Shown here: positions 8,036 through 64,000 of the stretch, in pieces
Layout: every line of letters begins with the position of its first letter
Numbering within the stretch: position 1 is the stretch's first letter
Assembly: GCF_019649055.1 (NCBI RefSeq)
Contig: NW_026570296.1
Location: 496,001-560,000 of the forward strand
Direction: 5' to 3'
Source: Paramacrobiotus metropolitanus
Taxonomy: Eukaryota; Tardigrada; Eutardigrada; Parachela; Macrobiotidae
Length of the DNA: 64,000 nucleotides
The notes under the pieces: model-generated
Databases searched by the model: none
What the model was told of the DNA's origin: nothing
The model's input: the letters and a program-made list of their open reading frames with translations, nothing else
Program-made: the position numbers and the translations under genes

Positions 8036-8381
8036 TATCAGAAATTGTTAGGCGTAAAATCAGTGTAGAAAAGGAGCAACTTCGCACAAGACCAAGAGCG
8101 AATTAATGAATGACACTGATCTTTGCAGGTAAAAATCGCATTTGCGGCCAGCTAAAAGCAGCTTTTCCACGCAAGTGATATGCCGAAAGAGCAACGAACG
8201 CTACTACGTCACTGCGGACTGTCCAATGGCGAATGCGGCTACTCAATCCGTACGTACACACAGATTTAATGGGAACTTTCCAAACAATTTAATGCAGTAG
8301 AGAGTAAAAATTCCAATTCTTAAAATTCAAAAATAAAATAAAATAGAATAAATGTACAAATTTACACGGCCGCTCGGCCTT

Positions 8382-11300: not shown

Positions 11301-11413
11301 TCAGCGATTTCTTGGAAGTTCTTAATAAATTGACGATAATATCCTACCATACCTAAAAATCTGAGAATATCTTTCTTATCTTTTATAGGACCAAATTCCT
11401 TAACCGCCTGGAT
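8382..11413 (-). pseudogene. pol: 3' half of element-1 pol: RT thumb, RNase H, integrase, third HHCC module
   Basis: This continues directly from the TAG that ends the long ORF. The first part (10703-11413) holds the RT thumb (GMVGYYRQF) and RNase H with its four acidic sites (VDAS, ELEAYA, TDHQAL, ADALSR). A one-base loss in an A run near 10718 shifts the frame to 8940-10706. That segment carries the integrase zinc module (H-x6-H...C-x2-C), the DD35E core, and a GPY/F-like segment with VSRLKPY. A two-base loss in a C run near 8947 shifts the frame again. The last segment holds another HHCC-like module with FW, W, HRRLLH and FCRICTLC landmarks and ends at 8382. Confidence 0.9.
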
Positions 11414-40195: not shown

Positions 40196-40230
40196 AGGTT
40201 TTGAATTTTAAACTACCTTCTCAATTGTTT

Positions 40231-45180: not shown

Positions 45181-45383
45181 TCCATTTCTGACTCGCAAAG
45201 GTCACAGGTCCTGTCCACCGTTTGCCGCACATTGGCCCATTCCGCTCTGTTGAGCAATCCTGCGCATCCATAATGCGACTTTCCATCACAATCCGCTTGA
45301 GAATCAGGTGCGACTTAGGAATACTGCTTCAATCTTTGGAATCTGGTGCGTATCATTCGTACGACTTCAAAATGAGATCCAAT

Positions 45384-45587
45384 AAAGGTCATGGAGGGAC
45401 GTCAATGAAGACAAGCGTAGTTCGCTTCCTCCCTAGTAAAGGTCATCCTTTGTTGAGATGTGCGACTCGTTTTGGGTTAATGGTCCCAAAGGTCATGCGA
45501 CTTGAAATCCGTTACCGGTGACTCTGTTGGGCAATTGATGATCCCAAAGGTCATCCAGCTTCTCTTCAAAACTTCCATTAAAGGTCA
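45384..45587 (+). repeat. Five clustered AAAGGTCA octamers in the element-2 tail
   Basis: Exact octamers start at 45384, 45438, 45488, 45546 and 45580, spaced 34-58 bp, all in the orientation opposite to most copies in the coding part. Two extend to AAAGGTCATGGAGG. One more precedes at 45197. Confidence 0.9.
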
Positions 45588-45699
45588 TGGAGGAACTTAG
45601 CCAATTTTCTGCGGCCTTCAAGCACTTCTTCGCTTGCCTCCCTGGTGAAACTTGCAGTTTGACCTTTCCGTCGCACATCCAACTTCAACGAGCCTCGAG

Positions 45700-46140
45700 C
45701 GGCCAGAGTGCCGGCAAAGTTTACCGTAACATTTCTGATGGGGCCGGCTAGTTACCGCATTGAGTTTACCCCATGAAATTTCCACATTTAATCTTTTACT
45801 CTTGTTCGCCGCTTGTGGCTTACGTTATTACGAGAGATCCGGCTTGATTACCGTAGTTTTTCTCGTTTTAATTTTGACACTGAATCGCTTAAAAAGAGTG
45901 CCGGCGCAGTTTACCGTAACGACTCTAATGAGGCCGGCTGATTGCCGCATTAAGTTAACCTCATCAATATTCCACCTGTTGTCTTTCTATTTTTCGCCGC
46001 TTATGGCCCCGTTTCGTATTCAAGAGATCCGGCTTGATTACCGTAGTTTCTCTTGTCAATTTATAACACTGAATCGCGTAAGGAGGAGAGCCGGCTAACT
46101 GCCGTAACTGCTCCCTTGGGGCCGGCTTTATAGACCGAAT
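45700..46140. repeat. Diverged direct repeats of about 200-230 bp in the element-2 tail
   Basis: Two successive units share GGCCGGCT...CCGCATT, TTCGCCGCTT(G/A)TGGC, GAGATCCGGCTTGATTACCG and CACTGAATCGC; a third partial unit follows. They lie after the last ORF and may belong to a 3' untranslated region or LTR. Confidence 0.8.
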
Positions 46141-46460
46141 CAATTTCAACCCCAATAGTATTCCACATGATTTCTTTAGGCAATTCTGTGCTATAAATGC
46201 TGCAAACGACAAATACACAAATACAATTAATGTTAACATGTCACATATCACGCCCTTTATACAACACCGTTTTTCATTTTTGTGACGTACCGACAAAATG
46301 CCGTAGACGTCCTTTCAATAGTGTGATCCTAAAGGTCAACACTATTCCATTTCATTTGAATCGCCCTCACCATCTCTCGGCGGGCGTTTCTTAGCGCTTT
46401 CCGGTTGGTTTCGATCGGAAGTTCGGTCAACTGGTTCCGTCGAGTCAACTTCCATGACCT

Positions 46461-49072
46461 TTACCGGGTCAACATGGCGCTGGCCACGACCTTTCCTTGG
46501 CGGCTTCGCTTAACTCTCTCAAGTTGGTGCCGTGCGTCGTTCTCCTCTAACCGCAGTCTTCGGTTATTAGGGTCAGCTGCCAGTCGCCGTTGTACGTCAG
46601 CGAGATTATCTCGGAGTTGCTGGTTCCGTATACCACGTCGTCCCATCTGGTTAGGAGCACGTTCCGGACGACGGTCACTTTTCTTCACCAAGAATTCATC
46701 AATGTAAGTCTCGACTCCGTCTACCGGTTCCACTTAGTCACTTCCTAGAGAATCTTTGATCTTATTGATCCTCTCTTCAACTTGGGAGGCATGGCGCTGT
46801 GTCAAGTTGCCCTTTTCCATCCGTGTCTTACATTTCTTCAGCGCCTTCCGAGCATTATGGGCTATGCTGATGTGTTCCAACGGTTGTCCCAATTTAGCGA
46901 CGTGAGGTCGGAAAAACGGTGGGATATCGTCTCTCATCGTATTCGATACCAGCTGGTTCTGTGTCTTGTAATGTGCCAGTCGTGCAGCAAAGACCTTTTG
47001 CCCCATCCTTTTTGCGGCATAGTCTTTCGGATCCACCTGAAGTCCTACTGATGCTCTGGCTGCGAGCAACTTGAAAGCCGGATTCACGTAGCGTAGAACA
47101 AACTGAGCCACATATTCCTGCCGTTCAGGATAATCGCGATAATAAAACTGTGTCATTCCGATTGGGTCAGTTGTATCCAATGGTACATCCAATAAGTTCA
47201 AATCCACTAAGCTGTGTAGCCCATTCTGTCTGATAGGGAGATAACAGTCCCGTACCGAGTCGCGGTGGATGAATAACCGGCGAAAAAGTCCTTGTTCCAC
47301 TCCCTCTTTAATTTCTTTCGCGTAACCCGAGTCGAGTAAGAAATGACTCAGCTGTCGCAGAATTGTGCCAATTTTGTTGGCTTCAACCGAATCCGGCTCA
47401 AGTCCAAAGTATCGACAAATTTCGACCGTTTGCTCATCGATATCAGTCGTCTTGTATTCCATGTCAATACTTTCTGGTTGTCGGTTATTAAATCTGGAGT
47501 TTAATCGCTGATCACCTTGGCGACGATTATCCGGTTCGCCTTGACCTTCCAGTTCGCGTCGGTCTGCTGATGCTGGCTGCGACGGTTCATTACTCGTCGA
47601 TGAAGCCGGTTGAAGGTCACTATCCAAGATTACATTTCGTCGGTGAGTCACATTCTCTTGAGACGTGGTTTCGACAACTGAGCCAGTGCCTTCCATCGCG
47701 TCATCTTCTTGTACGGTACTCACGATGGGATCCACTACGTGAACTGTTGACTCCATTCGCTGATATTTTGGGGGTGTATCTTCCCTCTCCGCACTCGATG
47801 ACCTTTTACTTGCGCCCGAGTCAAAGGTCGCGTAGAATGCAGCCCTCTGTTGCCATCTTTTATCGCGTGGGTCAGGCGTTCGATTTCGCGTATGTTCGCG
47901 TCTTTTATCCCATGACCTTTCGGGTGTTGACATCCTGACGTTACGATTACGGAAAGCAACTTCCGTCGGCACCTGATGTCCTTCCTTTTCAGGTTCTGTA
48001 CGGAATGTCTCCGCACGCCGTTTTTCTTCACGTTCTCTGGTCGCTGCCAATAACTTCGTTGTATCGATCTTCCTCTGAATGCTCATCTCTGTTACTTCAT
48101 CGCCGTGGCGTACCCATCCTCTTCCGCCACGGTAATCCCTGTCGCGAGAGCGTTCGCGTGACCTTTCACTGTGGTAGTCACGTGTCCTTTCACGAGAGTG
48201 TTCACGTGACCTTTCGCTTCGTCTTTCAGAAACCCGTTCATGTTCACGTGAATGTCCGCGTGACCTTTCTCTATGCGGAGGCGATCGAGGTCGAATGAAA
48301 CCTTCGTCCCGTTTAAAACTTCTGAGTGCTTGCAGCACATCGCTTTCAGTTCGGCGAGATTTACGTAGGTCATCCATACGTCTTTCGACTTCCTTCTTTA
48401 TGTAGGGTGCCGGCGCGAACCCGTCTTGAAGTCGTTTCTTCTCCCGCAACAGCATTTTGAATACCTCGTCTGACATAGCAGCTGGATCTTTCGTTAACGT
48501 TTCAATTTGAATGATAAGCGACTGTCGTACGAGTTGCATTTCGTCTTCATTAAGGCTGGCCATGCCCGTGGGTGCAGCTAAACCTGACGTACTGGGCAAC
48601 GCCTCTCGTGCGGCCTGTTCGCTTGCCCTCTTATTTTCCGCATTAATTTTCGCGCGGAGTTCGTCTTCCATTTGCTGAACTCGCATCTTCTCCTGGTCCT
48701 CTTCGAATTTCCTCCGATACGCGTCTGTCTGTGGACACTTCAACGGTTCCAAGGTGTCATCCCAACCAGGTTCGTTGTTCCGGATCGCTTCCCGGTAGCG
48801 ATCCTCGAGTAGCATTCGCTCTTCCACTGGGATGCTGCCGTAATGAGATTTCGAAAAACGTCCAAGTTCCCTCGTTTCGCTTCCATGATCCCAACAAGCG
48901 TGACGGCATGTGGGTCTTCCAGCTTGTGAATACAAGTGTAGCAAGGGAATTTCTTATCAACCTTTTTGTTGTTCCTTAAGCAGTCCGGACATTTCGGATT
49001 ATAGCCCGTAAACTGATCGATGTCTGCCGCCGTTCCCGTACGTTTAGGAGTGGCTTGACCTTTCTGTGCCAT
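46461..49072 (-). CDS. Last ORF of element 2, about 780 aa plus a 90-aa tail after a stop
   Basis: The N-terminal part (49072 to about 48850) has a Cys cluster (CPDCLRNN...CYTC). A one-step frame change near 48850-48890 leads to the main frame (to 46734). That frame has charged linkers, Arg/Ser/Glu/His-rich repeats around 48120-48290 (ERSRGHSREH type), and a folded-looking C-terminal region (FLLDSGYAKEI, YYRDYPERQEYVAQFVL). It stops at TAA (46734-46736). The same frame stays open for 90 more codons to 46461, and this tail resembles the C-terminus of element-1 ORF3. No enzyme or membrane segment is recognised. Many AAAGGTCA copies lie inside the coding sequence. Confidence 0.65.
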
Positions 49073-49412
49073 TTTTCCGCTTCAATCTGTAATTATAAAA
49101 CAATCCGTCATATTAACTTCTCCACGTTAATCCTTTCCATTTCCTATCCATATCAAGGCTTTTCTATCATTTTTACGCCTATTCCGTTACTGAGCTGAGA
49201 CTTTCCTAGCTCCTGCTGCCTTTTCTATCACTGTAACGTGGTGACCTTTCTCACGTTATCAGTACTCTCTGACTACTGTGACCTTTTCTATTAGTCCTAG
49301 TACTGCTTTCAGTTGACCTTTCGTAACGCTTTTCTCTTTCGTTTTAAACTGTTTTATGCTTTTTCTGTAATATGCAGGGTTCATTACTCGCTGCATATTA
49401 CACTCGATTAGT
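49073..49412. other. Spacer between the two downstream ORFs of element 2
   Basis: About 340 bp with three TGACCTTT octamers (about 49241, 49277 and 49313) and no gene. Confidence 0.55.
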
Positions 49413-52400
49413 TCACTCGGATTCTTTCGTCGATGGTTTATACGGCTTGAAATCGATTCGGCCATCTAGCTTAATATGAAGCACTTCGTCCGCGATCAAG
49501 GCTTCAACGGCATTCTTAATCCACTCTTTATCGCTTTCAATATTCAAATCTCCCAATTCGTAATTGACGGCCATGAAGTTCGAAAGGTCATTCCATGACG
49601 CGCCATTGGTACCGCCAATGGCGTCCAGAGCCACATCTGTGATGGCTATCTTCCAGGCCTCCAGTTCCATTTTCAGTCTGGGCGTTCGTTCCGTGCCCTG
49701 TTTCGGAAGGTAGTAGACGACTTTGTTGTCCTTGTTATATTTACATCCCAACTTTCCTTCCTTATAAGCTCGTTTCAAGACTCGTTCAGTCATGTTAAGT
49801 GACGACCTTCCGTTTGAATTTATTGCCACTTGTCTCTTCAGATCTGTACCAAGCATCTCTTTTTCTCGGATGATCTGGAGCGCGTTCTGGACTTCGTTCC
49901 ATGTACGATTATTCACGTCCAATGCCGGCCCTAACATGTAATCTGTAGCCTCCTTTGCCGGTGTACCGCTACTTTTCTGGGAGGATGTCGAGTCCGTTGG
50001 GTCAGCCGTCGCTGTCTCGTCGATCCTCAGCTTTGCCAATGATCCTGATGATGACCCCGCCGATTTTGGTTCGGCTGTCTTCTTCTCCTCTTGCGGCAAA
50101 GTCTCTTGACCTTTTAGATCGCCGACCGATTTCGATCGTTCCTTCTCAAAGACCTCCTTTAATGGTATGAACAGTGATTTATGAAACACCTGTCGTGCCG
50201 AATCCGCTTCAGCTTCTGCCGCTGCCTTATCCATCGGGAGCATGACCTTTTCTTTCTCCCGTTTGTCTGAAGCCTCATGACCTTTCGGTTGAACTTCTGC
50301 GGTAGTTTCAGATGTCTTCGGACCTTTTGACTGTTCATCTTTTTCTGTCGTAAGTCCAGAAGGAGCCGTTATAGTAGCGTCATCGTCGCTTTCCGATTCC
50401 GAATCCATTGGGCCTTTTGTCTTCGATGAAACTGTGACCTTTTCCATGTCCTGACTGTCGGACATATTACAGTGGATCTGTCTTTCCGGTGGTATTAGAC
50501 CAACTCTCGTGTATCGGATCGGGTGTCCTTTATGTGCGTTTGTCGTGGCAAGGACGTTCTGTTTAATCAACTTTGGCAATACGCGCTCGGTTGCCGTGTC
50601 GATCTCCTTTATCATTCCATTTCCGTCGTTCCAAACTGCGTTGATGTATTGGCTAATCCGGTGACTCGTTGACCCTAATGGGCTTGTCATTCCCGCGATT
50701 GCCCTTTCTACTCGCATTGGGACCGCTTCATTCGGAGTTGTCAGCGCCTTATCCGAACTGGCTGGTCTGAACAACTTGGCCTCATACGAAAAACTCGGGT
50801 GCTTCTGTATGAGTTTTCCTGCGTTCCGCGCGAATTCCAACACGACATCGAACTTTTGTTTAGTGAAGCTACGATGTTGTTTCTTCAGATATGTCTTCAG
50901 GCCCGCTTTGAATTTCGATGTTACCGATGCTGTTCTTATTCGTGTGAAATTCTTCTCCGCTCCGTTATACGCTTTGATTATTTCATCGACCGTGTTCAAA
51001 TTATCATCATCTGGGCCATCAAATTCTTCATCCGAGGTGAAGTCCAGTTCACTCTCCCCGTCTGGTTCAGTGTAATTGATCATTGCCATTGCGTCGACTT
51101 TTATGGCTGTCTTGCCCTTTCCTTTGGTCTTAACGGGTTCGCTCTTTGCTTTTTTCCCTTTATCCAGAGCTTCCGCTAAGCTTCTTGGCTCAGTAGTCCT
51201 TGATCGTGTCGTTTTCGAATCTGTGTGTGACCTTGCACTGACCGTCGAAGTGCTTGGAAGGCTCACTTCCGATGCCTCCGATTCACGCGACGTCTCCCGT
51301 TTCGCTTTTTCGCGAATCTGTTTGTCCTTGCGCTCTTTTGGCGTGGATGCGGAAATGACAATGGGGACAGCTTGTTTCACCGCTATGACCTTTCCTTTGA
51401 GTTTTGATGGCTCTGCTGTAGCCGATTGAATAACTTTCTTTGACTTCGTAGGTGTCGATGACCTTTCTTCAACTTCACCAACTGACTCGTCCAATATCTC
51501 AACATCATGCGACGCTGGTTCATCTCTTTTCTTCTTCCCGGTGCTTGTGCTATCGCTTTCGTCACCGCTCTTCTTCTTCTTATCTTCTTCCTCCTGTCGT
51601 TTCTTCTTATCTTCTTCCTCCCGTCGTTTCTTGAGAAAATCGCCTTTCTTGACCTTGTCACGGTTCATGGCCTCTTCCAATCTAGGCGCTTTTCTCGGTT
51701 TGACTTTTGAGGGCTTCACTTTCGAGGGCTTTTTATGTTTGTCGGCCATTTCTTCGTCTGAGCCTTCTTCCTCAGGTGGGTCCTCGTCTTCCGACTCTGG
51801 TTCGTCGTCACCAGGTGGATTACAATAGGCACAGTTTGGTTCATCACACTGAAGGTGCTCGTGACTTCCTTGGGCAATCTCAAGTACTCTTTGTAGCGAA
51901 CGTCTGGCCCCTCCTGTTTCGGTTATATTTGCCGACGTGCCCTGCGCCTCTTCCGTCTCTCCGGCTCCGCCTTCTTGTGCCGGGGGATGAATTTCCAAGT
52001 GTCTGGTCTCTTTCGGAGATCCCTGTGAGGCGACCTCCCACAAAGGGTTCTTCTTAGCGTCGTAAAATACCGTTTTGTACGTTCCATCTTCCATTCGTCT
52101 TGTGAGTCGGAAATGTGCTCCATCGATCTCCGCTCGATGCCGCATCATGCTGATGAGTGTGCTTGCTTGAACCACGGCATCTTTTCGGTCGCTTTCAGGT
52201 ATCAGATCCCATAGCTGGTCGATAGCTGCCTGATTCGCATTTCGGGCGCTCTCTTCTGATACATCCCATGGGGCATATGGGACCGGGTCTCCTGTTATTG
52301 GGTCAACTATCACCGCAGTTATGGTTTCCGTAGCTTCTCCATTGTCAGCGAAAAGTCTGAGGGTGACCTTTCTGCTTGTCGCCTCTGTATACCTCGGGAC

Positions 52401-54218
52401 CGACTCATAATCATCTGACGATCGTTTCTTCGGATCTAGGTCCGCCGTCGGTTTTGAGCGAGTTCTCTTTTTGATCAACAGTTTGCCGTCCGTTGTGTAT
52501 GTATATGCCAAGTGGTCATCATCTGTGCCCACTTTGATGCGGATCCATGCATCTTCTTCGGTTGCAACTTTGGATACCACGTGCTTCATCATCTGAACGA
52601 TAACTCTTGGGTTATGACGTTCTTCTGGAGGAATAAACTGTAGCGCCTCATTGACTATCGTTTTTGACTCTTTCCCAATGGCATCCTTGACTGACCTATC
52701 CGCGAGGGGATTATACGAGTCGATCTCTTTGTTCGTTTTCTTATCGACTATTCGTGCAGTGACCTTTCGTTCTTTATGATCTTCCCCAGTGTACTTGGCC
52801 GTGAAACTTCTACACTTCGGGAATCGAATCTGACCTTCTGTTCCAGCTGGTGTGGGTGGCGCGCTCTTTCTACCCACTGGAACTGCGCCTTGTGGCTTTG
52901 CCGGCTCTGCTGGTGTTGCTTTGCTTTCTGTGGGCCTCTTTGTTCGCTGCCCTTTCTTATCAGTTTCTTTTGGGCTTGTCGTCGGTGATCTCACTCTTTT
53001 TCCACTCTTCGTGGTGCCACTGGATGGTTCTGTGACCGAGCTAGTACGTCCACGTCCTGATCCTGCAACCGAGCTGGCCCGTGACCTTTCTGCTCGTTCC
53101 GTTAATACGGCATCAATCCTCTGCTTTGTGGCCAAAAGGTCCTCGTCCGTCATTTCATCAACCGGGGCATCTTTTTCAGCTCTGGGTTTAGATGGTCCCG
53201 CGACGCTGGTAGTCGGTGTCTGTCTTGTTTCTGGGAACACCTTGAGATATCGAAGGATCTTTTCGATAGTCGAAGGCCATGGTCTACCGTTTAGCGACGG
53301 ATGGTATTGCCACATCGACGCAACTTTTATCGCGTATTCCCTGCGCTCTTTTTCGATCAGTTTCGTCTTTTCCTTCAGTGCGATATGACATGGTTTGATG
53401 ACAGCTTCCAGGCTAATCAGCTTTCCATACCATGCGTGTTCATCTTCAACTCGCATATGAATTCGGTAAAGTTCACGACACTTTCGGTTTAATTCCCGGA
53501 TAGCTTCTAAATCCTTTTCTGTCAGTTTGTCGTCCTTATCCGGAATCATATTTAAGCGTGCATCGTTTTCGCTCAAATCCAAAGGGAGTTTCGGTGCGTA
53601 TGCATGTATTGAAGGTTCACCTGGGGGCGTAAGTCGTAATCCGTCTGGTCCAGTCTCGTCCAAGTTAGGCCCCAGTGACGGTAAAATTCCTCTCGGTCGC
53701 CTATTTCCTCTGTTTGGCGAATTGCGATGGAGACGCTGCACACCCAGTTGCTGCGGTGTCCTCATGCGAGGCGCTCCTATGTCCGATAGTGCCAAGCCTC
53801 CCGTCTCCGGAAAAGGCGGTAGTATCGGAGATGACCTTTGTGATCGCGGTGGAGTTCCGCTGAATCCACCATGTCCCATAAATCGACTCGGTGTGGTCTG
53901 TTGCGGTGGCGGCATCAACATTCTTGCCGGTCCCATCATTACTTGTGGTGGTCCCATCGGTGGGGTATACGATCCTGGATACGGTTGATAAGGGGCGCCC
54001 GTTGCTTGTCCCGAATACTGGGTTCCGGCAGGTGAGCCGTGGTGCACCCAGTTAACCGTGTCCTGATAACTCGTCTGCTGTCCTGGATCGTGATACACGT
54101 AATATCCCTGGCCGCCATAGTAACCTCCTTGACTTGTTCCAGGTTCATTCTGAGCCGTTCCCACTGACGACGTTGATCCTTCACCATATGAAGTGTCATA
54201 ACCGTATTCACCTTCCAT
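49413..54218 (-). CDS. Large structural-type ORF of element 2 (1601 aa as it stands), N-terminus cut by insertion
   Basis: The protein starts MEGEYGYDTSYGEG. It has a Tyr/Gly/Pro/Gln-rich first 150 residues, a helical segment at about 225-340, Lys/Glu/Ser-rich linkers, and two related segments near 480-620 and 650-760 that could be a duplicated domain (KVTARIVDKKTNKEI...PEERHNPRVIVQMM and KVTLRLFADNG...IPESDRKDAVVQAS). A Cys/His patch (HLQCDEPNCAYC) lies near 800, then acidic and basic runs, and a C-terminal region with NRTWNEVQNALQIIREKE and SWNDLSNFMAV. No known enzyme is recognised. The true start is probably at 55530 (MDRLERQ...), separated from this part by mitochondrial DNA. Position after pol is unusual for a Gag-like protein. 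Confidence 0.7.
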   Translation of the reverse strand: MEGEYGYDTSYGEGSTSSVGTAQNEPGTSQGGYYGGQGYYVYHDPGQQTSYQDTVNWVHHGSPAGTQYSGQATGAPYQPYPGSYTPPMGPPQVMMGPARMLMPPPQQTTPSRFMGHGGFSGTPPRSQRSSPILPPFPETGGLALSDIGAPRMRTPQQLGVQRLHRNSPNRGNRRPRGILPSLGPNLDETGPDGLRLTPPGEPSIHAYAPKLPLDLSENDARLNMIPDKDDKLTEKDLEAIRELNRKCRELYRIHMRVEDEHAWYGKLISLEAVIKPCHIALKEKTKLIEKERREYAIKVASMWQYHPSLNGRPWPSTIEKILRYLKVFPETRQTPTTSVAGPSKPRAEKDAPVDEMTDEDLLATKQRIDAVLTERAERSRASSVAGSGRGRTSSVTEPSSGTTKSGKRVRSPTTSPKETDKKGQRTKRPTESKATPAEPAKPQGAVPVGRKSAPPTPAGTEGQIRFPKCRSFTAKYTGEDHKERKVTARIVDKKTNKEIDSYNPLADRSVKDAIGKESKTIVNEALQFIPPEERHNPRVIVQMMKHVVSKVATEEDAWIRIKVGTDDDHLAYTYTTDGKLLIKKRTRSKPTADLDPKKRSSDDYESVPRYTEATSRKVTLRLFADNGEATETITAVIVDPITGDPVPYAPWDVSEESARNANQAAIDQLWDLIPESDRKDAVVQASTLISMMRHRAEIDGAHFRLTRRMEDGTYKTVFYDAKKNPLWEVASQGSPKETRHLEIHPPAQEGGAGETEEAQGTSANITETGGARRSLQRVLEIAQGSHEHLQCDEPNCAYCNPPGDDEPESEDEDPPEEEGSDEEMADKHKKPSKVKPSKVKPRKAPRLEEAMNRDKVKKGDFLKKRREEEDKKKRQEEEDKKKKSGDESDSTSTGKKKRDEPASHDVEILDESVGEVEERSSTPTKSKKVIQSATAEPSKLKGKVIAVKQAVPIVISASTPKERKDKQIREKAKRETSRESEASEVSLPSTSTVSARSHTDSKTTRSRTTEPRSLAEALDKGKKAKSEPVKTKGKGKTAIKVDAMAMINYTEPDGESELDFTSDEEFDGPDDDNLNTVDEIIKAYNGAEKNFTRIRTASVTSKFKAGLKTYLKKQHRSFTKQKFDVVLEFARNAGKLIQKHPSFSYEAKLFRPASSDKALTTPNEAVPMRVERAIAGMTSPLGSTSHRISQYINAVWNDGNGMIKEIDTATERVLPKLIKQNVLATTNAHKGHPIRYTRVGLIPPERQIHCNMSDSQDMEKVTVSSKTKGPMDSESESDDDATITAPSGLTTEKDEQSKGPKTSETTAEVQPKGHEASDKREKEKVMLPMDKAAAEAEADSARQVFHKSLFIPLKEVFEKERSKSVGDLKGQETLPQEEKKTAEPKSAGSSSGSLAKLRIDETATADPTDSTSSQKSSGTPAKEATDYMLGPALDVNNRTWNEVQNALQIIREKEMLGTDLKRQVAINSNGRSSLNMTERVLKRAYKEGKLGCKYNKDNKVVYYLPKQGTERTPRLKMELEAWKIAITDVALDAIGGTNGASWNDLSNFMAVNYELGDLNIESDKEWIKNAVEALIADEVLHIKLDGRIDFKPYKPSTKESE

Positions 54219-54410
54219 TCTTATAGGTGTTGATGCTTTTAGTCCTTCTCTCCAAGGAAAAAAATCTTTTAACTTTTTATTTTTTTACAGTTTTTTATTA
54301 ATTAATTTAAAACACAATGAAGATATATTAATATAATTTAAAAAAAAATTTAATATATTAATTATTTTATTACTTACTAAAATAAATAAAAGAATATTTT
54401 TTTTTTTTTT

Positions 54411-54923
54411 ATAGTTATAACGTTATTTATTGGAAACATTCACAATATAATTCAACATAACGTAAAACAAATTTTAATTTTTTCAAGAGTATCCAATAAT
54501 GGATGAATCTTATTGACACTTTTTCTACCTTTTATATCTCAATTTTTTTTTTTATACTATATGTTATTGATGAGTCTGTTCATTAATTTTATAACTTGAG
54601 AAAACAAAACCTTAATAATAAATAAAAAAATAATTATTTTTATGATATTAATAATTGCAAGAAGAATTCCTCCTTCACCAAGATTTTTAATTAAAGTAGT
54701 AATATTTTACTTCTGTGTATCAATAAGATTTTTTATTATTTTACTAAGATTTGTGTTTATTTCAGTACTAGAAATTTTTAATTATATCCGCGTATTAACC
54801 ATATGAATAAGAATCAAAAAATATAAAAAACAAGTGAAAAAAAAAAAAAGAAGAAGAAAAAAAATGATATATAATTTTTTTATTAATGATTATCCCGGCT
54901 ATTATAATCTGGTAAAGTTTTAA
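54411..54923 (+). pseudogene. nad2: nad2, 3' part (mitochondrial origin)
   Basis: 171 in-frame codons ending at TAA when TGA is Trp, ATA Met and AGA Ser. Recognisable NADH dehydrogenase subunit 2 blocks are QILIFSSVSNNGW (family pattern near SSISHMGW) and IPPSPSFLIK. Hydrophobic throughout, as expected for a complex I membrane subunit. Upstream (54244-54410) further AT-rich sequence probably belongs to the same gene but has frame breaks near T runs. It cannot be expressed as nad2 from the nucleus because of the code. Confidence 0.8.
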
Positions 54924-54972
54924 GTTAAAAAAACTAGAGATTTTCAAAATCTCCAATAAAAAATAAACTTTT
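54914..54972 (+). tRNA. trnW: Mitochondrial tRNA-Trp (UCA)
   Basis: AAAGTTT/AAACTTT acceptor stem, AGTT/AACT D stem, and GAGAT/ATCTC anticodon stem with loop TTTCAAA, anticodon UCA. The T arm is reduced to a short loop, as in some animal mitochondrial tRNAs. It overlaps the nad2 end and, on the other strand, trnC. Confidence 0.85.
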
Positions 54973-55019
54973 AAATAAATTTATAAGTAGTTTTGCAAAC
55001 CACAAGAAAAAGTTAAAAG
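54968..55019 (-). tRNA. trnC: Mitochondrial tRNA-Cys (GCA)
   Basis: On the minus strand, acceptor CTTTTAA/TTAAAAG and anticodon stem GTGGT/ACTAC with loop TTGCAAA. It is compact, about 52 nt, and overlaps the 3' end of trnW by a few bases. Confidence 0.75.
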
Positions 55020-55020
55020 A

Positions 55021-55073
55021 GAGGAATAAACCTATTTATAAATTTACAATTTATTGCTTAATCAGCCACTCCA
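55021..55073 (-). tRNA. trnY: Mitochondrial tRNA-Tyr (GUA)
   Basis: On the minus strand, anticodon stem ATAAA/TTTAT with loop TTGTAAA (GUA) and a GCT/AGC D stem. The acceptor stem pairs poorly, so the ends are approximate. Confidence 0.6.
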
Positions 55074-55135
55074 TTACTGCGTTGAATATTTTCCACAAAT
55101 CACAAAGATATTGGAACACTATACTTTTATTTTTG
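55074..55135 (+). pseudogene. cox1: cox1, 5' tip (mitochondrial origin)
   Basis: The mitochondrial-code reading gives RWMFSTNHKDIGTLYFYF, the hallmark start of cytochrome c oxidase subunit I. It is cut at the junction with element-2 DNA. Confidence 0.85.
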
Positions 55136-55471
55136 CGGTGGCGGCATCAACATTCTTGCCGGTCCCATCATTACTTGTGGTGGTCCCATCGGTGGGGTAT
55201 ACGATCCTGGATACGGTTGATAAGGGGCGCCGTTGCTTGTCCCGAATACTGGGTTCCGGCAGGTGAGCCGTGGTGCACCCAGTTAACCGTGTCCTGATAA
55301 CTCGTCTGCTGTCCTGGATCGTGATACGTAATATCCCTGGCCGCCATAGTAACCTCCTTGACTTGTTCGAGTTCATTTCTGAGCCGTTCCCACTGACGAC
55401 GTCGATCCTTCACCATATGAAGTGTCATAACCGTATTCACCTTCCATTCTTATAGGTGTGATGCTTTTAGT

Positions 55472-56837: not shown

Positions 56838-59800
56838 TTAAACTTTCTTCATTTCCGCTTTTAGGTATTGCGCCAAGCCATCAGCAATCGTCTGCATCTG
56901 TCTCTCCACTTGGCCTTGACCTTCTGGGTGATACGCCGTTCCAAATGTGTGTTTAATTTTAAACACATTGGTGACCTTTGCCAATACTTCAGCTGTAAAG
57001 TGTCGTCCGCGATCCGTATGAAGGATGTGCGGTGCACCGTGTACCAGTATCACGTGCTTCACGAACACTTTAGCGAATTCTTTAGCCGTCGCCGTTTTCA
57101 TTGGTACCGCAATCACATATTTCGTCAGTTGGTCGATGAATACCGCTATATACTTGTATCCACGTTTCTTCGTCGGTAACAACGGTCCTTTCAGATCAGC
57201 GTACACTCGGAAGAACGGATGTCCAACTTTAATTTCTTGTAATTTTCCAGGTGGGCATTTTCTTGGTGTCTTGCGGAACTGGCAACCTTGGCACGCGAGT
57301 ATGTAATTCTTCACATCGGTACTCATTCGATCCCAATAATACCGTAATCTTATTGCTGACAATGTCTTTTCAAATCCCAAATGACCCGCTGCTTTCTCAT
57401 CATGCAATGCGTGGATTATCGCTCTTCGCATTGACAACGGTACGACATATGACCTTTCAAGTTTTCCATTTTTATCCTTGACTCGGTATAATATGCCGTT
57501 CCATAACTGATAATGAACTTCGAATTTCGATCTTGTTTCCGCATCTGGTAGATGTTCCAATTCATCTATAATCATTGCCAGATGAGGATCTTTCAACTGT
57601 TTGTTTCGCAGTTGTAAGTTCGAGTCATCCACTTCTTCTTCATCACCTTGCAGGTTAACGATGCGGACTGTCGCTGTACTGAGTTCGTTCCAGTCTCTGA
57701 TGACCTTACAGCGTGGTAACGGCTTATACCTCTTTTTCGTCTGTTTTGGGAATCTCAGCAGCAATCGGACACTCATTCAATGCTTGTGTAACTTTGTCCG
57801 TTTCCCAAAGGTCATCTTTATTCTCCGCTGCTTCATCAAGTTCCATGACCTTTCCATTCTGCATCTTGGATTCCGCGTCAAGTCCGGTGACCTTTAAGTC
57901 GCTAACGGTGGGTAACCAACTTTTACACGGTTCACATTAGCTTCAGTTTCAGCCGACTCATTCGCCGTAGCTGAAATGACCTTTAAGCGTTTATCTCTCT
58001 GTTCCACCATCTGTAAGGAACAGCTGGCCAATTTCAATTGCTGGTTCCTTCGTGTCAAATTCCTTCTTGTAATCCTCGAAGTTTGGAATCTCATCAAATT
58101 CCTCTTCGTGACACGTCGGGCCTTCAATTGGCGCTCTTGATAACGCGTCCGCATTGTCGCAATATTTCCCCGGTTTATATTCAATTTTAAACTGGTGGCC
58201 TTGTAGTGCCATTGCCCATCTTGTCAAGCGCGGGTTCATTCCAACTTTGTTCGTCTCTGACCTTAGCAGATTGGTCAGCGCCTGATGATCCGTCCTTACG
58301 GTGAATTCTGCGTAATCAATGTACGGCTTGAATTTCCTGACAGCGAACACAACTGCCAGACACTCCCATTCCGTTACACCGTAATTTTTCTCGGCTCCAT
58401 GTAAAACGCGACTGGCGTACGCGATCGGATGTCCATCTTGTGACAGCACCGCTCCGATTCCTTCTTTACTCGCGTCGCATTCAATGACGGTCGGTTTCGC
58501 GGGGTCAAACTTTGCTAGTACTGGACCTTCACATAACAATTGTTTCAAACTGTTGAATTCATCTTCATGTACCTTCGTCCAGTCCTTTTTCACATGCTTA
58601 TCTTGCCTCAGCAACTCATATAGGTGGCAGGTCTTCTGTGCGTATCCCATTATGAACTTGCGATAATAATTTGCCAGTCCAAGGAATGACCTTAACTGCC
58701 TTTCCGTTTGAGGTCGTTTGAATTCTGAGACCGCGGTGACCTTTTCCGGATCCATTCTGATTCCATCTTCGCTGAGTATGTGACCCAGGAATCCCATTTG
58801 TCTCATTCCAAATTCACACTTGGTTGGTTTAATCGTGAATCCCGCTTCAACCAGACTCATTAAGACATTTCGCAGATTCTGCATGAAGATCGCCCAAGTC
58901 TTTCCGGCGAAGATTACGTCGTCAATGTACCCGAAAACGCAACCCTTTCTTTTCGCTTTCGAGAGAACTTTATCCATACACAATTGAAATGTTGCTGGTC
59001 CGTTGCAAACTCCAAATGGCATTCTTTTAAACCGATACATTCCATCTTGTGTTACAAAGGTCGTCTTATTGATTGACGCTGGGTCCATTGGTATCTGCCA
59101 GAATCCACTTTGTAAATCCATTTTTCCGTAATATTTGTTGCCTGCGCATGCATCGAGCAACTCATCCGGATTTGGTAACGGGTAATTATTCTTTCTCGTT
59201 AGCTTGTTAAGCATGATGTAATTGACGCAAAATCTTGTTCCCATTGTTCCATCACCGTTTTTCTTTACTGCCAGCACGACTGGGAAACTCCACTCAGCGT
59301 CTGACGGCTCAATTACATCTTGTGCCAACATTTCTTCGATATGCTTCGTTATAAACTCACGGCCTGTCCAACTCGTTCTGGCCGGGTTACATTTTACTGG
59401 TTTCGCATCTCCCGTATCGATTACGTGGGTGACCCCTTTCACATCTCCATACGGTTTCTTTGATGTGGGTAAGACCTTCCAGAATTCCCAGAATGCGTTG
59501 TACACGTCGTTTTTCTGCTCTTGGGTAAGGTCAGGTCCCAATTTCAAGTTTTCGATTATCTTTGTAAGTTCAGCTTTCGTTGTATCGTCCACCTCAGGGT
59601 CTTCGAGTACGTTCTTTACTGTCCCTGCGTTGACCTTTACATTCTCCATATGTTCATACGGCTCAACATAGCCGAGAAGCTGATTTTTCTTCACGATTCG
59701 GTATTTGCTACTATGATTCGCGATGACGATTTCGAAGTATTTTCCCCTGTGGTCCGTCACTCCTGCCAACGGTTGCACTTCAGTTTCCACTTGTGGGACC

Positions 59801-62028
59801 GGTGTAAACATCAACTTGTTTTGAGCCGGTGCATATTTTCCCATCTTGACCTTTACACGTGTGCAGTTTGACGGTTTCAACTTGATTCTCTGGTCGCTGT
59901 AGACTTTAATCACGTCTTTAGACATTCTGGCTTTTTCCACTTTCAGTCTTCTGACTTTAATATCCTTTTCTTTTTCTTCATCCACTTCGTCATCCTCATC
60001 CAAGTCCATTAAATCCTCTTGCTCCGAAAGGTCACTTACACCTGAATCTTCCGAAGTTGTTGAATTATCACTTGAACTCGTCCACTCGGAGTCGGAGTTA
60101 CTGCTCTCATATTCTTGTGCAGTGGCTTGACCTTTGTTTGCCTTTTCGAGTGGACGCTCATCAACTCCTTCATCTTCTGATGAAAGGTCACTTCCGTTTT
60201 CTCGCGAATCGCTAAGTTTTTTCGCTTTCGAATTTTTGAGCAGGGGTTTGTCCCCTTCTTTTGCCTTTCGCCCAGTTCGTGCAGCGACTCTCGGGTGACT
60301 CCTTGCTACTCGAATTCTCGTTGGTGACCTTTCTGATTGGTCGGAGTTTGACCTTTCTTCGTCCGATTTTGACTTTTCCAGTTCATTTATTTCTTCGCGG
60401 CTCGTTAATGGCTTTTCGGTCAACTCGACCGGCGGGCATTCCTCACCGTTATCGAGTGACCTTTCCCCGTTTTTTGCCTTAGTTGCTGGGTTTTGCTGCT
60501 CGTTCGATATCCTTTCAACTTCCTCTTTGAACCTTTTCCACATTTCACCTCTATCCGTTAACATCTGCGCAATATCGAAAGCTGACTTTGAACTTTCTTC
60601 TGTTTCATTCGATTGTCCTTCGGCTATCTCTTTAATTGGTTCCTCTTTCTCTGCTTCTTTGGGAGTCCCTTTATCGGCTTCATCCTGTTGAACTGTTTCG
60701 TAACCTTTAGGTCGTTTAGGACCAACGAAAATGCAGTTTGCCATCAGTTCTTCGGTGACCCATTCATCATTTGGAATCGTTTCATACATGCACCATGTAT
60801 CACCGCCTCGTTCGGGGTAGTCCACTCCATCTGGATCTGGTGCAAAGGTCACCTTTTTCTTTTGCATCAAACCCGGTAACCTTCTTTTCCGAGTTACCTG
60901 TAGTTCTCGCATTTCTTTTACGTCAAATTTGGGGATCTCTTCCTCGAATTTCTTCCAGTATTTCTCGAATGCTTTTTCGTTTCCCTCTTTTAACGCGTTG
61001 TAGTACACTTCAAGTGATTCGTAGACAGGTGTACCAAGTCCTGCCGGGAAGATGATCGTTCTCCCTTCACCTTTATACATGTGGTTCACACGGAAGTCCC
61101 AGAAAAGATCAACTCTCGCTTCTTCCCACATTTCTCCTTCCTCGGTCATTTCTTCTATCTCTCGTTCAAATCTCCTTTCTGTTGCTACCGGATCGAGAGG
61201 ATCTTGGATTCCTTTCTCGACACGTTGCAACCAATGGTTTAGCCATCTGCCTCTTCCAATTATAAAACTTTCCACACATGACAACCACGTTCGATATCTA
61301 TTCCAATGATACCGTTCGATGTGTGGTTTCCACATTTCGTTTGTCCGCATGATGCTTTTCGCTTTCTTTTGGGCGTGACCTTTAAGGTCTGCTAATGCGG
61401 CATTACATCTTGGCCATTCTGAAGGGTCATCTTGAGAGGCATTTTCACAACATTCCGCGCATTCCCATTGTGGTTGCACTCTGCACGGATCCTCAAAGTA
61501 ACCGTGGTGACAACTCCCGGTTCGTTCTTCTGGAGTTAATGTCCTTTGACTCGCTTCAGGTTTACCCTGTTCCTGTACTGTGGTATCTTCCTCACATTCG
61601 ATTGGGGTCACGCTTTTATCCTCAGAGGATATTTCAATGACCTCTGGTTCTTTTTCTGTTCGGTGACCTTTCAATTGTTCGAGTGCCTTGTCGCGGATTT
61701 CGCTCGTAAACATCTGTTGCTCTTCAACTATTCGTTTCAAAACTCGTAACCTTTCACTCTTTTTATCCTTCCCCACTTTGGCCGTCTTTATTCCCAGTGC
61801 CTCTGGTACTGGGATAGGCTTTGCCCACTCCATGTCTGGCACAAGCGATTGTTTCGCTGCAACTGCCGCTTCTTTCTGTGTGGCAATTATCTCTTCAAGC
61901 GTTGGTGACCTTTCGGTAGCAGGTCGTGGTTCGAAAAAGGGTTCCTTTTGAGAGTCACGTTCTGTTACTTCCTCTTTGGCTTTATCTGGTAGCCTTTCAT
62001 TTTGGGTAGCAGATCGTGGTTCGAAAAG
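55874..62028 (+). repeat. Six dispersed copies of a GGTAGCRG...GGTTCGAAAA word
   Basis: Copies lie near 55874, 55961, 56192, 56286, 61915 and 62005. On the coding strand they give FEPRxAT or FEPP-type peptides. They occur both in the open pol frame and in the decayed region. Confidence 0.85.
56838..57776 (-). CDS. pol: Integrase of element 2 (312-aa segment)
   Basis: It has an N-terminal HHCC zinc module (HALHDEKAAGH...CQGCQF) and a catalytic core with D (VYADLKGPL), D (HTDRGRHF) and E (GQGQVER), with 35 residues between the last two, the DD35E signature. It ends early by a frameshift at KKV. The segment between RNase H and this ORF (57777-57990) is open in pieces in other frames, so the original polyprotein has been broken by several single-base changes. 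Confidence 0.9.
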   Translation of the reverse strand: MSVRLLLRFPKQTKKRYKPLPRCKVIRDWNELSTATVRIVNLQGDEEEVDDSNLQLRNKQLKDPHLAMIIDELEHLPDAETRSKFEVHYQLWNGILYRVKDKNGKLERSYVVPLSMRRAIIHALHDEKAAGHLGFEKTLSAIRLRYYWDRMSTDVKNYILACQGCQFRKTPRKCPPGKLQEIKVGHPFFRVYADLKGPLLPTKKRGYKYIAVFIDQLTKYVIAVPMKTATAKEFAKVFVKHVILVHGAPHILHTDRGRHFTAEVLAKVTNVFKIKHTFGTAYHPEGQGQVERQMQTIADGLAQYLKAEMKKV

Positions 62029-63342
62029 GTTCGAATTACGCTCTCGTTCCAAGTTCTCAGTTGCTGGTGACCTTTTGTCTTCCTTTCCCAGTGCCTCTGG
62101 TACTGGGATAACTTTTTCGACATTTCCATTTTCCTTTTTCGTTTCCAGTGCCTCTGGTACTGGGATAATTTCTTCCTGCTGCACCTTTGTCATTCCCGGT
62201 GCCTCTGGTACTGGGATGACCTTTTCTCTTCCCTTCTGTGTCAGCAAGGTCCGATTTAATGTCTTTTCGATCTCCTGCTGGATTACTTGCAACTGCTCAA
62301 ATGGTGACAATTCTTTTCGCGTCACCTTTTTCTTTTCGTTTCCCGGTGCCTCTGGTACTGGGATTAGCGTTTTGTTAACTGTTTGAGCATTTCCCGCCTG
62401 TTTTACGAGTTCGGTGACCTTTCCGACTTGAACTTTGGCGACTGGTTTTGGGTCATCTTCTTTCTCTTCTTCACCTTCGTTATCCATTAGTACAAATTTC
62501 TTTTCCAAGAAGTCAAATCCCAGTAAGACTTGTACGTCGTCACACTTCGGTCGGACGTAGAAAGAATGTTCGCTTGTCTTCTTTCGTAAGGTCACTGGTG
62601 CTACACAGTAATGCGTCACCAGGAATCCTGACGTTCCACTAATTCCATTTATCTTCACCAATCTGTCTGGTGGCAGTGGAAGCATGTGGAGTCCATTCTT
62701 TTCGCAAAACGGTTTGCTGATCAGCGACGTCTCGGCGCCGGTGTCCAGCATTGCGTTGACCTTTATGTCTCCCACTTTCACTTCGTGTGTATATGCTTCA
62801 ATTCTCTTTGGTAACTTTCCATTTTGAATCTTCAGGGTGTGAATCTTACATTTCACAGGGATAAGCGATACTGGTCCTGGATCCATATCGGAAAGCACTT
62901 GTCCTTTTGCTGGAGTGCTATGACCTTTCAGTATCTCGCTCAGCTTATCAATCCTATGTGGAACGTTAGTCCGAACATCGTAATATTTTCGCGGCTTTTC
63001 TTTATTTGTTCGCTTCTCTGTAGCCATTTTATCACCGGTGACCTTTTCCACATTCTGCACTTGCTCATTTGCTTTTGTGCTATCCATGTGACCTTTAGTC
63101 ACTTCATTTATCGTTTGATGGATCAGTTCCTCTTTACGGTTTTCATTTCGTTTATCTCTCAGCTTCTCAATGACTTCACTTGTTATTTGGTCCGCTCGTT
63201 TCAATTCGTCTTCTTCGCTATCTTTCGTCTCATCTGGTGACCTTTCATATGTAACCATGTCATATCCCTTTTCGGTCATCCATTCGATCACCTTCGCGGA
63301 GACTTCATTGTTCGTTTTCGTCTGATCAATTTGTGAAGACAT
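57991..63342 (-). CDS. pol: Protease-RT-RNase H polyprotein of element 2 (1783 aa)
   Basis: The aspartic protease is at about 205-310 (LDTGAETS, LLGFDFL). A spacer of more than 800 residues follows, with five IPVPEA(P/L) repeats, two FEPR(P/S)AT motifs, a Cys cluster (WECAECC) and strongly acidic parts. A beta-rich segment precedes RT. RT includes MDLQSGFWQ (motif A Asp present), MPFGVCNGPATFQ and YIDD. RNase H has all four acidic sites (ECDAS, TEWECLA, RTDHQAL, NADALSR). The Met at 63342 lies three codons after the UGA of the upstream Gag ORF, in the same frame. No inactivating change is visible in this ORF. Confidence 0.92.
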   Translation of the reverse strand: MSSQIDQTKTNNEVSAKVIEWMTEKGYDMVTYERSPDETKDSEEDELKRADQITSEVIEKLRDKRNENRKEELIHQTINEVTKGHMDSTKANEQVQNVEKVTGDKMATEKRTNKEKPRKYYDVRTNVPHRIDKLSEILKGHSTPAKGQVLSDMDPGPVSLIPVKCKIHTLKIQNGKLPKRIEAYTHEVKVGDIKVNAMLDTGAETSLISKPFCEKNGLHMLPLPPDRLVKINGISGTSGFLVTHYCVAPVTLRKKTSEHSFYVRPKCDDVQVLLGFDFLEKKFVLMDNEGEEEKEDDPKPVAKVQVGKVTELVKQAGNAQTVNKTLIPVPEAPGNEKKKVTRKELSPFEQLQVIQQEIEKTLNRTLLTQKGREKVIPVPEAPGMTKVQQEEIIPVPEALETKKENGNVEKVIPVPEALGKEDKRSPATENLERERNSNLFEPRSATQNERLPDKAKEEVTERDSQKEPFFEPRPATERSPTLEEIIATQKEAAVAAKQSLVPDMEWAKPIPVPEALGIKTAKVGKDKKSERLRVLKRIVEEQQMFTSEIRDKALEQLKGHRTEKEPEVIEISSEDKSVTPIECEEDTTVQEQGKPEASQRTLTPEERTGSCHHGYFEDPCRVQPQWECAECCENASQDDPSEWPRCNAALADLKGHAQKKAKSIMRTNEMWKPHIERYHWNRYRTWLSCVESFIIGRGRWLNHWLQRVEKGIQDPLDPVATERRFEREIEEMTEEGEMWEEARVDLFWDFRVNHMYKGEGRTIIFPAGLGTPVYESLEVYYNALKEGNEKAFEKYWKKFEEEIPKFDVKEMRELQVTRKRRLPGLMQKKKVTFAPDPDGVDYPERGGDTWCMYETIPNDEWVTEELMANCIFVGPKRPKGYETVQQDEADKGTPKEAEKEEPIKEIAEGQSNETEESSKSAFDIAQMLTDRGEMWKRFKEEVERISNEQQNPATKAKNGERSLDNGEECPPVELTEKPLTSREEINELEKSKSDEERSNSDQSERSPTRIRVARSHPRVAARTGRKAKEGDKPLLKNSKAKKLSDSRENGSDLSSEDEGVDERPLEKANKGQATAQEYESSNSDSEWTSSSDNSTTSEDSGVSDLSEQEDLMDLDEDDEVDEEKEKDIKVRRLKVEKARMSKDVIKVYSDQRIKLKPSNCTRVKVKMGKYAPAQNKLMFTPVPQVETEVQPLAGVTDHRGKYFEIVIANHSSKYRIVKKNQLLGYVEPYEHMENVKVNAGTVKNVLEDPEVDDTTKAELTKIIENLKLGPDLTQEQKNDVYNAFWEFWKVLPTSKKPYGDVKGVTHVIDTGDAKPVKCNPARTSWTGREFITKHIEEMLAQDVIEPSDAEWSFPVVLAVKKNGDGTMGTRFCVNYIMLNKLTRKNNYPLPNPDELLDACAGNKYYGKMDLQSGFWQIPMDPASINKTTFVTQDGMYRFKRMPFGVCNGPATFQLCMDKVLSKAKRKGCVFGYIDDVIFAGKTWAIFMQNLRNVLMSLVEAGFTIKPTKCEFGMRQMGFLGHILSEDGIRMDPEKVTAVSEFKRPQTERQLRSFLGLANYYRKFIMGYAQKTCHLYELLRQDKHVKKDWTKVHEDEFNSLKQLLCEGPVLAKFDPAKPTVIECDASKEGIGAVLSQDGHPIAYASRVLHGAEKNYGVTEWECLAVVFAVRKFKPYIDYAEFTVRTDHQALTNLLRSETNKVGMNPRLTRWAMALQGHQFKIEYKPGKYCDNADALSRAPIEGPTCHEEEFDEIPNFEDYKKEFDTKEPAIEIGQLFLTDGGTER
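61793..62363 (-). repeat. Five copies of a 23-nt coding repeat (IPVPEA)
   Basis: CCCRGTGCCTCTGGTACTGG with GAT following, at 61793, 62087, 62145, 62193 and 62341. The codons are almost invariant. CCCAGT and ACTGGG could pair into a small hairpin in most copies. Confidence 0.9.
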
Positions 63343-63351
63343 TCCGTCTGT

Positions 63352-64000
63352 TCAGGCTGGTGACTTGTCATTGGCATCCTTTTTCAGCGCCTCCGATAAG
63401 TCCCGTGACCTTTCAACTGTGCTACTCTGTTGCATTTGCGCCATTTCATTTGACCTTCCTTTCTGTTCATTTTTCGCTAAGTCCTGTGACCTTTCGTTGC
63501 GCTTCATGACAAATCCGCCACCTGTCAGCTTTTGTATGGGGACTTTTTCTCCGTAATTCGGCGGTTTATCCTGTGGCGGAGCATTACGTGAATGATTCCA
63601 GTCAGCGCATGTCTTCTTATATTCCTCTGCGTTGAATGCTGGGACTGGGTTCGGTGACCCCTGCGCTGGTTTCCCGGTAACCAACTCTTCCAGTCGCTTT
63701 CTTTCACATTGCGTTCGCAACTGTTGCATATCCCAGTAATCCTCTTGTGACATTCGCGCTTTCTGCTTTGCCTTCGGCGTTACGGGTATCCACATCCCGT
63801 GATTCCCATTCGGTCTGTAGGCCACTTTTTGCCAGGTTTCCTTCCGTTGCAGCGTTATTGCATCTACAAGTGAGTCATCGGAGTTCTGTTGTGCCAATTC
63901 GCCATTCTTTTGCTGCGCTGTTCGCAGTGTCAAGTCTGTTTCTTGACCTTTTAACACGACGCTGTCGTCGTGACCTTTCGCATTCGCACTCGCTCCTTGA
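63352..64000 (-). CDS. gag: Gag-region ORF of element 2, partial at the right edge
   Basis: The frame is open to the window end with no start seen; the GTG at 63957 is internal. The part visible is hydrophilic and Gln/Lys-rich with no zinc knuckle. It ends at UGA (63352-63354). Because it lies directly upstream of the protease ORF in the same frame, it should be the C-terminal part of Gag. Confidence 0.65.
   Translation of the reverse strand, partial: QGASANAKGHDDSVVLKGQETDLTLRTAQQKNGELAQQNSDDSLVDAITLQRKETWQKVAYRPNGNHGMWIPVTPKAKQKARMSQEDYWDMQQLRTQCERKRLEELVTGKPAQGSPNPVPAFNAEEYKKTCADWNHSRNAPPQDKPPNYGEKVPIQKLTGGGFVMKRNERSQDLAKNEQKGRSNEMAQMQQSSTVERSRDLSEALKKDANDKSPA

Follow-up and report, generated by a model that had tools for sequence, protein, structure and literature searches.

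Host-factor sites in retroelements are well known as promoters or as a single insulator cluster, and in Drosophila gypsy the Su(Hw) insulator array places about a dozen sites for a host protein in one untranslated stretch. Here we describe an octamer-rich retroelement, element A, in a 64,000-nucleotide stretch of the tardigrade Paramacrobiotus metropolitanus (contig NW_026570296.1, positions 496,001 to 560,000; this whole stretch is called the window, and its own numbering is used below). Gypsy is a Ty3/Gypsy element with a site cluster outside its long terminal repeats (LTRs), bound by a host DNA-binding protein with effects on chromatin, and A resembles it in these respects if its words are read as we propose. 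Unlike the gypsy cluster, however, the roughly 90 exact words of A, AAAGGTCA or its complement TGACCTTT, span genes, spacers and untranslated regions, with 55 of 89 in open reading frames (ORFs). Their excess over codon-level expectation and their retention in related copies point to selection on the word itself, which we consider a putative site on double-stranded DNA.

Bacterial DNA uptake sequences, Chi and KOPS share with A the use of one exact short word, in coding and non-coding DNA and independent of reading frame, and the occurrence of A's word in both orientations is also that of uptake sequences. Unlike Chi and KOPS, A shows no strand skew outside its ORFs, and unlike all of these bacterial systems it is a eukaryotic retroelement; we know of no uptake or recombination enzyme for its word. 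Compared with nuclear-receptor sites in any promoter known to us, the number, density and exactness of the words in A are far greater. The core word itself is identical, since AAAGGTCA is the NR4A response element (NBRE; PMC7901948) and fits the ERR site (ERRE) TNAAGGTCA, as does the T found before non-coding words, although A has an A where ERR prefers C (PMC5476932).

The periodic An/Tn clusters of C. elegans are a dispersed DNA-level signal able to prevent germline transgene silencing, but these are periodic A/T runs in non-coding DNA, whereas A carries an exact octamer, exons included (PMC7725773). The giant Gypsy elements Burro and Ogre resemble A in large size and extra ORFs, the internal region of Burro exceeding 20 kb (PMC6431247). 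Unlike Burro, A has no recognizable MATH, BIR or ankyrin domains in the ORFs scanned (none at an E value of 0.001 in the five ORFs within the window, and none at E 10 in the gag-like ORF, ORFd and ORFe listed below); unlike Ogre, whose size comes largely from long LTRs, A has LTRs of ∼360 bp; and the consulted parts of that account mention no dispersed exact word (PMC6431247). A literature search, mostly of titles and abstract openings and with subscription journals largely outside it, returned no retroelement in which one word forms a code along the whole element independently of coding. Under the likeliest mechanism, the use of host DNA-binding sites by a mobile element is already known, and it is the scale, exactness and placement of the octamer that would be new.

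Results

Abundance and placement of the octamer

A preliminary description of the window, made by eye, had put about 60 octamers in 19 kb, about 50 in the sense orientation of the element and 12 in the opposite one, and about two in the other 45 kb. Exact counting gave 63 in 45197-63980, 50 of them TGACCTTT on the plus strand (element sense) and 13 AAAGGTCA (antisense), and exactly two elsewhere, at 33169 and 35954. The octamer ranks first among all 8-mers of 45197-63980, where the top unrelated words reach 11. The extent proposed at that time, 45197-63980, is indeed octamer-rich, but the element is larger, reaching from LTR to LTR at 44563-70325. A piecewise count between the LTRs gave 89 words, plus one across the window edge at 63998, compared with ∼1 expected from composition; this estimate spanned 27.75 kb, including ∼4 kb of word-free DNA past the LTR, and the density is thus understated. 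No octamer was found in the LTRs of A, or in retroelement 1 (window 1-19000).

Judged by its LTRs and domain order, element A belongs to the Ty3/Gypsy LTR retrotransposons; it lies on the minus strand, spans ∼25.8 kb and extends beyond the window end. The closest protein matches, at 96-97% identity, come from P. metropolitanus itself. The LTR pair is 98.1% identical over 366 bp, and Pfam matches to protease, reverse transcriptase (RT), RNase H and integrase fall in Ty3/Gypsy order. Along the minus strand, the 5' LTR is followed by a non-coding leader, the gag-like ORF, ORFb, protease-RT-RNase H, integrase, ORFd, ORFe, a non-coding tail and the 3' LTR. The internal region measures ∼25.05 kb, or 23.8 kb when a 1.23-kb insertion is subtracted, and is thus Burro-like in exceeding 20 kb. 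The features are:

44563..44919, minus strand: 3' LTR, 0 octamers; the partner LTR (69971-70325) lies outside the window, in L009
45197..45587, plus strand: six antisense octamers in the 3' non-coding region, starting at 45197, 45384, 45438, 45488, 45546 and 45580
45197..63978, no strand: the 63 scattered octamers AAAGGTCA/TGACCTTT within the window
46734..48944, minus strand: ORFe, 736 aa, RS-rich, 5 sense octamers, no Pfam match
49413..54218, minus strand: ORFd, 1601 aa, 10 sense and 1 antisense octamers
54231..55133, no strand: AT-rich insert, 19% GC, 330-bp duplication on its flanks, 0 octamers
56838..57776, minus strand: integrase ORF (H2C2 zinc finger and rve core), 2 sense octamers
57991..63342, minus strand: protease-reverse transcriptase-RNase H ORF, 1783 aa, 18 sense and 3 antisense octamers
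63352..63957, minus strand: ORFb, 201 aa, 3 sense octamers
64866-68654, outside the window, upstream of ORFb: gag-like ORF, 1262 aa, 9 sense and 4 antisense octamers
68685-69046, outside the window: eight antisense octamers directly upstream of gag

The 55 words within ORFs comprise 47 sense and 8 antisense copies, and 34 of the 89 lie outside the listed ORFs, in keeping with the earlier remark that spacers and tail carry them too; all three codon frames are used as claimed, the 47 sense words splitting 9, 18 and 20. In a codon-aware null, as had been suggested, synonymous codons were shuffled within each ORF (2000 shuffles). The 47 sense words compare with a mean of 4.5 and a maximum of 12, and the 8 antisense words with a mean of 0.27 and a maximum of 3. 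Regular spacing was rejected: in A the gaps average 271 bp, with a coefficient of variation of 1.18, and in element B, a relative introduced below, they average 200 bp, with one of 1.20, both coefficients falling within the random range of ∼0.81-1.22.

That the words have no function and merely follow from base composition, codon usage, peptide repetition, tandem expansion or mutational bias is in our judgment highly improbable. Short repeats do hold some of them (a 24-bp unit in ORFe of A, and mostly 18-39 bp spacing in the matching stretch of B), and glutamate-arginine-serine is encoded at 15 of the 47 sense words. However, the codon-preserving null rejects composition and codon use as the cause, the three frames reject a repeated peptide, and the absence of the word from retroelement 1, together with its absence or scarcity in a sister clade within this genome, rejects a host-wide mutational bias; the mostly unrelated flanks and the synonymous freezing described below also speak against a lack of function.

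Conservation in element B and in other copies

Element B, at C1:201729-220362, has LTRs 97.9% identical over 340 bp and a pol frame broken in places. Its protein identity to A is 37% in a stretch of gag and 55% across the main stretch of protease-RT. It holds 87 words, 63 sense and 24 antisense, compared with 64 sense and 25 antisense in A, and their boundaries are sharp, with 0 words in 6.7 kb past one LTR and 1 in 4.6 kb past the other. A protein-guided alignment of A and B gave 3287 codon pairs with 1804 identical residues. Among the 36 words of A that fell in paired gapless codons, 22 were exact in B, compared with 4.7% of 9225 control windows. Where the residue was the same, the codons were identical in 56 of 60 cases wholly inside words and in 735 of 1644 outside, the residue-mix expectation being 0.42; by this comparison, synonymous sites within words are frozen between A and B. 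The remaining 14 of 36 words, which are not exactly common to both, indicate that single sites also turn over.

Whether octamers in other copies vary like neutral sites had been raised in the preliminary description. An RT search gave 95 scored matches of at least 87% identity among 1683 candidates, and a 1.5-kb piece positionally homologous to window 62.0-63.5 kb was taken from 20 copies, 19 of which were aligned; the unaligned L048 stands outside the rates and the tree. Twelve copies (L032-L041, L050, L051) hold 7-13 words each in this piece, and in these the word sites differ from the window in 24 of 795 bases (3.0%) compared with 2503 of 15209 elsewhere (16.5%). In four aligned wordless copies, the homologous sites differ in 69 of 216 cases (31.9%) compared with 1046 of 3907 (26.8%; p 0.10), as expected without constraint, and three copies with 1-3 words are intermediate (32/200 vs. 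862/3347). The sites in word-poor copies lie one to several changes off the word, varying from site to site. For L044 and L046, one copy word was scored against two adjoining window sites, so that retention is slightly overstated. The earlier proposal of selection on the nucleic acid thus gains from both sides, the codon null being far exceeded and the word being kept in other copies, synonymous positions included. On this evidence the words in coding sequence are under purifying selection, as are, by their density, those in non-coding sequence. The excess, the independence of frame and codon, the synonymous conservation, the concentration in the internal region of one element clade and the near-absence from a sub-clade are all read from the sequence.

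Gain and loss of the word

In a tree of the 1.5-kb piece (21 rows, sense octamers masked, midpoint rooting), the seven aligned word-poor copies formed one group (support 92/96), sister to the group of the window, while B, L050 and L051 formed a third. An RT protein tree with outgroups (18 rows, with some outgroups on long branches flagged by the program) had the form ((L065, B), ((window, P0001, P0002), (L062, L063, L064))), in which L062-L064 are the word-poor elements. In the next outgroup family, P0046, whose RT shares 64% identity with that of the window in the aligned part, one 1.5-kb piece had 0 words. The history that fits best, and is the simplest, is one origin of the code before the A/B split followed by one near-complete loss, because A and B share positions and the P0046 piece is word-free, the outgroup support consisting of that one short piece. 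The exact sharing of 22 of 36 words at homologous positions makes two independent gains unlikely. The loss of nearly all words in a sister clade had not been anticipated in the preliminary description.

A word-free element on C97 has an open frame of 2982 aa at RT. No comparable substitute word was found in 4.8 kb of word-free element, where the top 8-mer, the A-rich AAAAAGAA, occurred 6 times; a like-sized sample of A held 19 octamers. A search with ORFe, in which 61 of 776 candidates were scored, listed 73 matches, so that the absence of a copy from it is uninformative.

The turnover of sites (14 of 36 not exactly shared) and the near-complete loss in one clade would also fit a transmission drive like that of bacterial DNA uptake sequences, in which the word would be favored in biased transfer, recombination or co-packaging and not by an expression role of each site. 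An exact word present in many copies, in both orientations and in coding and non-coding DNA, is the uptake-sequence pattern, but we know of no biased transfer step for Gypsy elements, and we regard this explanation as improbable.

Form of the word and its orientation

Exactness is high. The most frequent of the 24 one-mismatch neighbors reaches 7 in A and 6 in B, compared with 89 and 87 exact words, and the best-tolerated mismatch position is the first A of the word. The base that follows the octamer (base 9) is C in 49, T in 27, A in 13 and G in none of the 89 words of A, and is G in 2 of the 87 words of B; in A, G follows 256 of 1043 TCA triplets outside octamers. Among antisense words alone, base 9 is G in 0 of 49. 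Farther flanks are nearly unconstrained. Non-coding words of A and B have T at -1 in 21 of 29 cases, giving TAAAGGTCA, and coding words have G there in 46 of 93, consistent with frequent GAA-AGG-TCA codons. The consensus site is (T)AAAGGTCA(C/T/A, G rare).

Outside the listed ORFs of A, 17 words are sense and 17 antisense, although some of these spacers may be coding in broken frames (e.g., the integrase end), and a polar, Chi-like signal was rejected on this ground. The bias within ORFs, 47:8, runs in the same direction as the codon null, 4.5:0.27. Both A and B have a run of antisense words directly upstream of gag and a second in the 3' region, and 5 of 7 antisense words of A are exact in B compared with 17 of 29 sense words, in a small sample.

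The preliminary description had considered a role in RNA equally possible. In such a role, Gag or a host protein would bind AAAGGUCA scattered in the genomic RNA, for packaging, export or splice control. The sense orientation of 64 of the 89 words would suit this, and the sense word holds AG|GT, such that the ban on G at base 9 could serve to keep 5' splice sites from arising. However, antisense words are no less conserved than sense words, obey the base-9 rule, form runs at the same two places in A and B, and equal the sense words in number outside ORFs, and we think an RNA-level signal quite unlikely. A reader of double-stranded DNA is preferred over one of RNA because of this equality outside ORFs, the base-9 rule in both orientations and the scant tolerance of mismatches; like treatment of both orientations fits a double-stranded DNA reader, unlike a single-stranded RNA reader. 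These results strongly suggest that the octamer is recognized as a site on double-stranded DNA.

Candidate readers

The exact AAAGGTCA contains the core AAGGTCA with the 5' extension of an NBRE or ERRE half-site. The host genome has 63 stretches matching zf-C4, and in some cases two of these are halves of a single receptor. Ten of the 63 were read: by eye, two were ERR-like and two RXR-like, and one was NR5A-like (2e-40); for the one ERR-like stretch tested, EsRRA was among two equal best PDB matches (2.5e-45). Stretches without a PDB comparison carry their class names provisionally. A nuclear receptor, the lead given in the preliminary description, is still a plausible candidate reader of the octamer.

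Alternatively, a DNA-binding protein encoded by the element, e.g., ORFd, might coat the cDNA or provirus of that element, to pack it or to prevent self-integration. Residues 1530-1580 of ORFd have a weak linker-histone match (PF00538, E 0.012, below cut-off), and the AlphaFold model of residues 1040-1601, too poor for a fold search (mean pLDDT 36), shows helix-helix-helix-strand-strand patterns. A linker-histone-like domain encoded by a retroelement would be unusual. The ORFd homolog of the word-free element diverges strongly, being 41% identical to that of the window over 383 positions where RT is 93% identical, a comparison that rests on one 2-kb piece. Against an element-encoded reader, that homolog is retained and open in the word-free element, whereas nothing in word-rich B matches the ORFd of the window at E 0.01, even though the LTRs of B are 98% identical; in these two cases ORFd and the word thus do not co-occur. 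Octamer specificity is, moreover, not known of linker histones, and we consider this alternative unlikely, if less so than the RNA signal.

The octamer elsewhere in the genome

Genome-wide, the word occurs 42,562 times compared with 15,522 for its reversed letters, an excess that may not come wholly from the A/B family. G follows 4,042 of the 42,562 words, and the reversed control of that nine-letter word occurs 2,427 times; because the word with G exceeds its control, the base-9 rule appears weaker outside the A/B family.

Tandem arrays of 82/91-bp units, octamer-packed and with a GGCGACCC/GGGTCGCC hairpin, were seen at L020:696-1045, L028:38-665 and L029:4560-4826. They belong to a repeat of ∼5 kb with copies 93-98% identical, and the copy listed has no long ORFs; some of its octamers have G next. 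Another locus, L016 (C1:300001-310000), has 14 octamers with G never next and no match to the element proteins tried.

Other features of the window

As previously described, the octamer is missing from the AT-rich insert, which amounts to ∼0.9 kb within 53901-55460; its flanking 330-bp duplication is element sequence. Probably few copies carry this insert, because by eye the RT-to-ORFe spacing is ∼1.1-1.2 kb shorter in 5 of 6 other copies. In retroelement 1 (935-11122), the RNase H-integrase part is present in three near-identical tandem copies, 3.39 kb apart, and 124-bp units lie in tandem (∼8.5 copies) at 39145-40196. Rfam and tRNA scans gave no matches, and neither did a plasmid search using the F-box ORF.

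Discussion

The best overall explanation, in which we have a little less than even confidence, is that the octamer is a double-stranded DNA site held by purifying selection, read by a host factor of nuclear-receptor type, and licensing the element. Both the protein reader and the benefit to the element we infer. A sequence-specific double-strand DNA-binding protein would coat the element, as integrated DNA or as cDNA, at sites on average ∼200-270 bp apart, and would most likely be a monomeric nuclear-receptor type that binds an extended half-site (NR4A, ERR, NR5A). Once bound, it might keep this unusually long, provirus-like DNA accessible to transcription or protect it from silencing, with the words acting as a distributed licensing code and not as a promoter. 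The parts of this explanation differ in strength: the reader is probably a host rather than an element protein, while its membership of the nuclear-receptor class is a tentative suggestion, and so, in like measure, is a role in chromatin or expression licensing.

Several observations weigh against this explanation. The LTRs, where transcription is expected to start, carry 0 words, and the near-zero tolerance of mismatches is stricter than expected of a transcription-factor site. The sister clade has 0-3 words in 8 of 20 1.5-kb pieces (one being the unaligned L048), and one of its elements has 0 words in 4.8 kb; since this clade, with long open frames, is nearly word-free, the word would not be needed for transposition as such. 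Outside the family, 205 kb of other DNA, a sample partly picked for holding the word, contained 57 words compared with 21 of the reversed-letter control, and the satellite-like arrays of another repeat carry the octamer densely. The 10 receptor stretches read, out of 63, included none recognized as NR4A. The base favored by ERR at N is C, TCAAGGTCA (PMC5476932), and CAAGGTCA is scarce here, with 5 in A and 4 in B. Finally, the evidence covers one species and consists of sequence.

A benefit from host licensing would have to be conditional, because a clade persists almost without the word, and dependence on it could be shed, e.g., when another control takes over or the host factor changes. Somewhat more tentatively still, we suggest an address code, in which ∼90 exact words, at a synonymous-site cost in the genes, would mark the full internal length of the element for one double-strand DNA-binding protein. 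Taken jointly with this suggestion and held no more firmly, the code may be a heritable lineage trait, absent from the outgroup piece, present at homologous positions in two clades, and almost wholly lost in a third.

To our knowledge, transposon control in tardigrades has been little studied. Should the word mark the element for a DNA-binding protein of the host, it would be a self-marking or licensing code of a eukaryotic mobile element that is readable from sequence alone, and a signal at the DNA level would constrain many codons of the element's proteins. Related clades with and without the code, in one genome, would then offer a natural experiment on silencing, expression and copy number.

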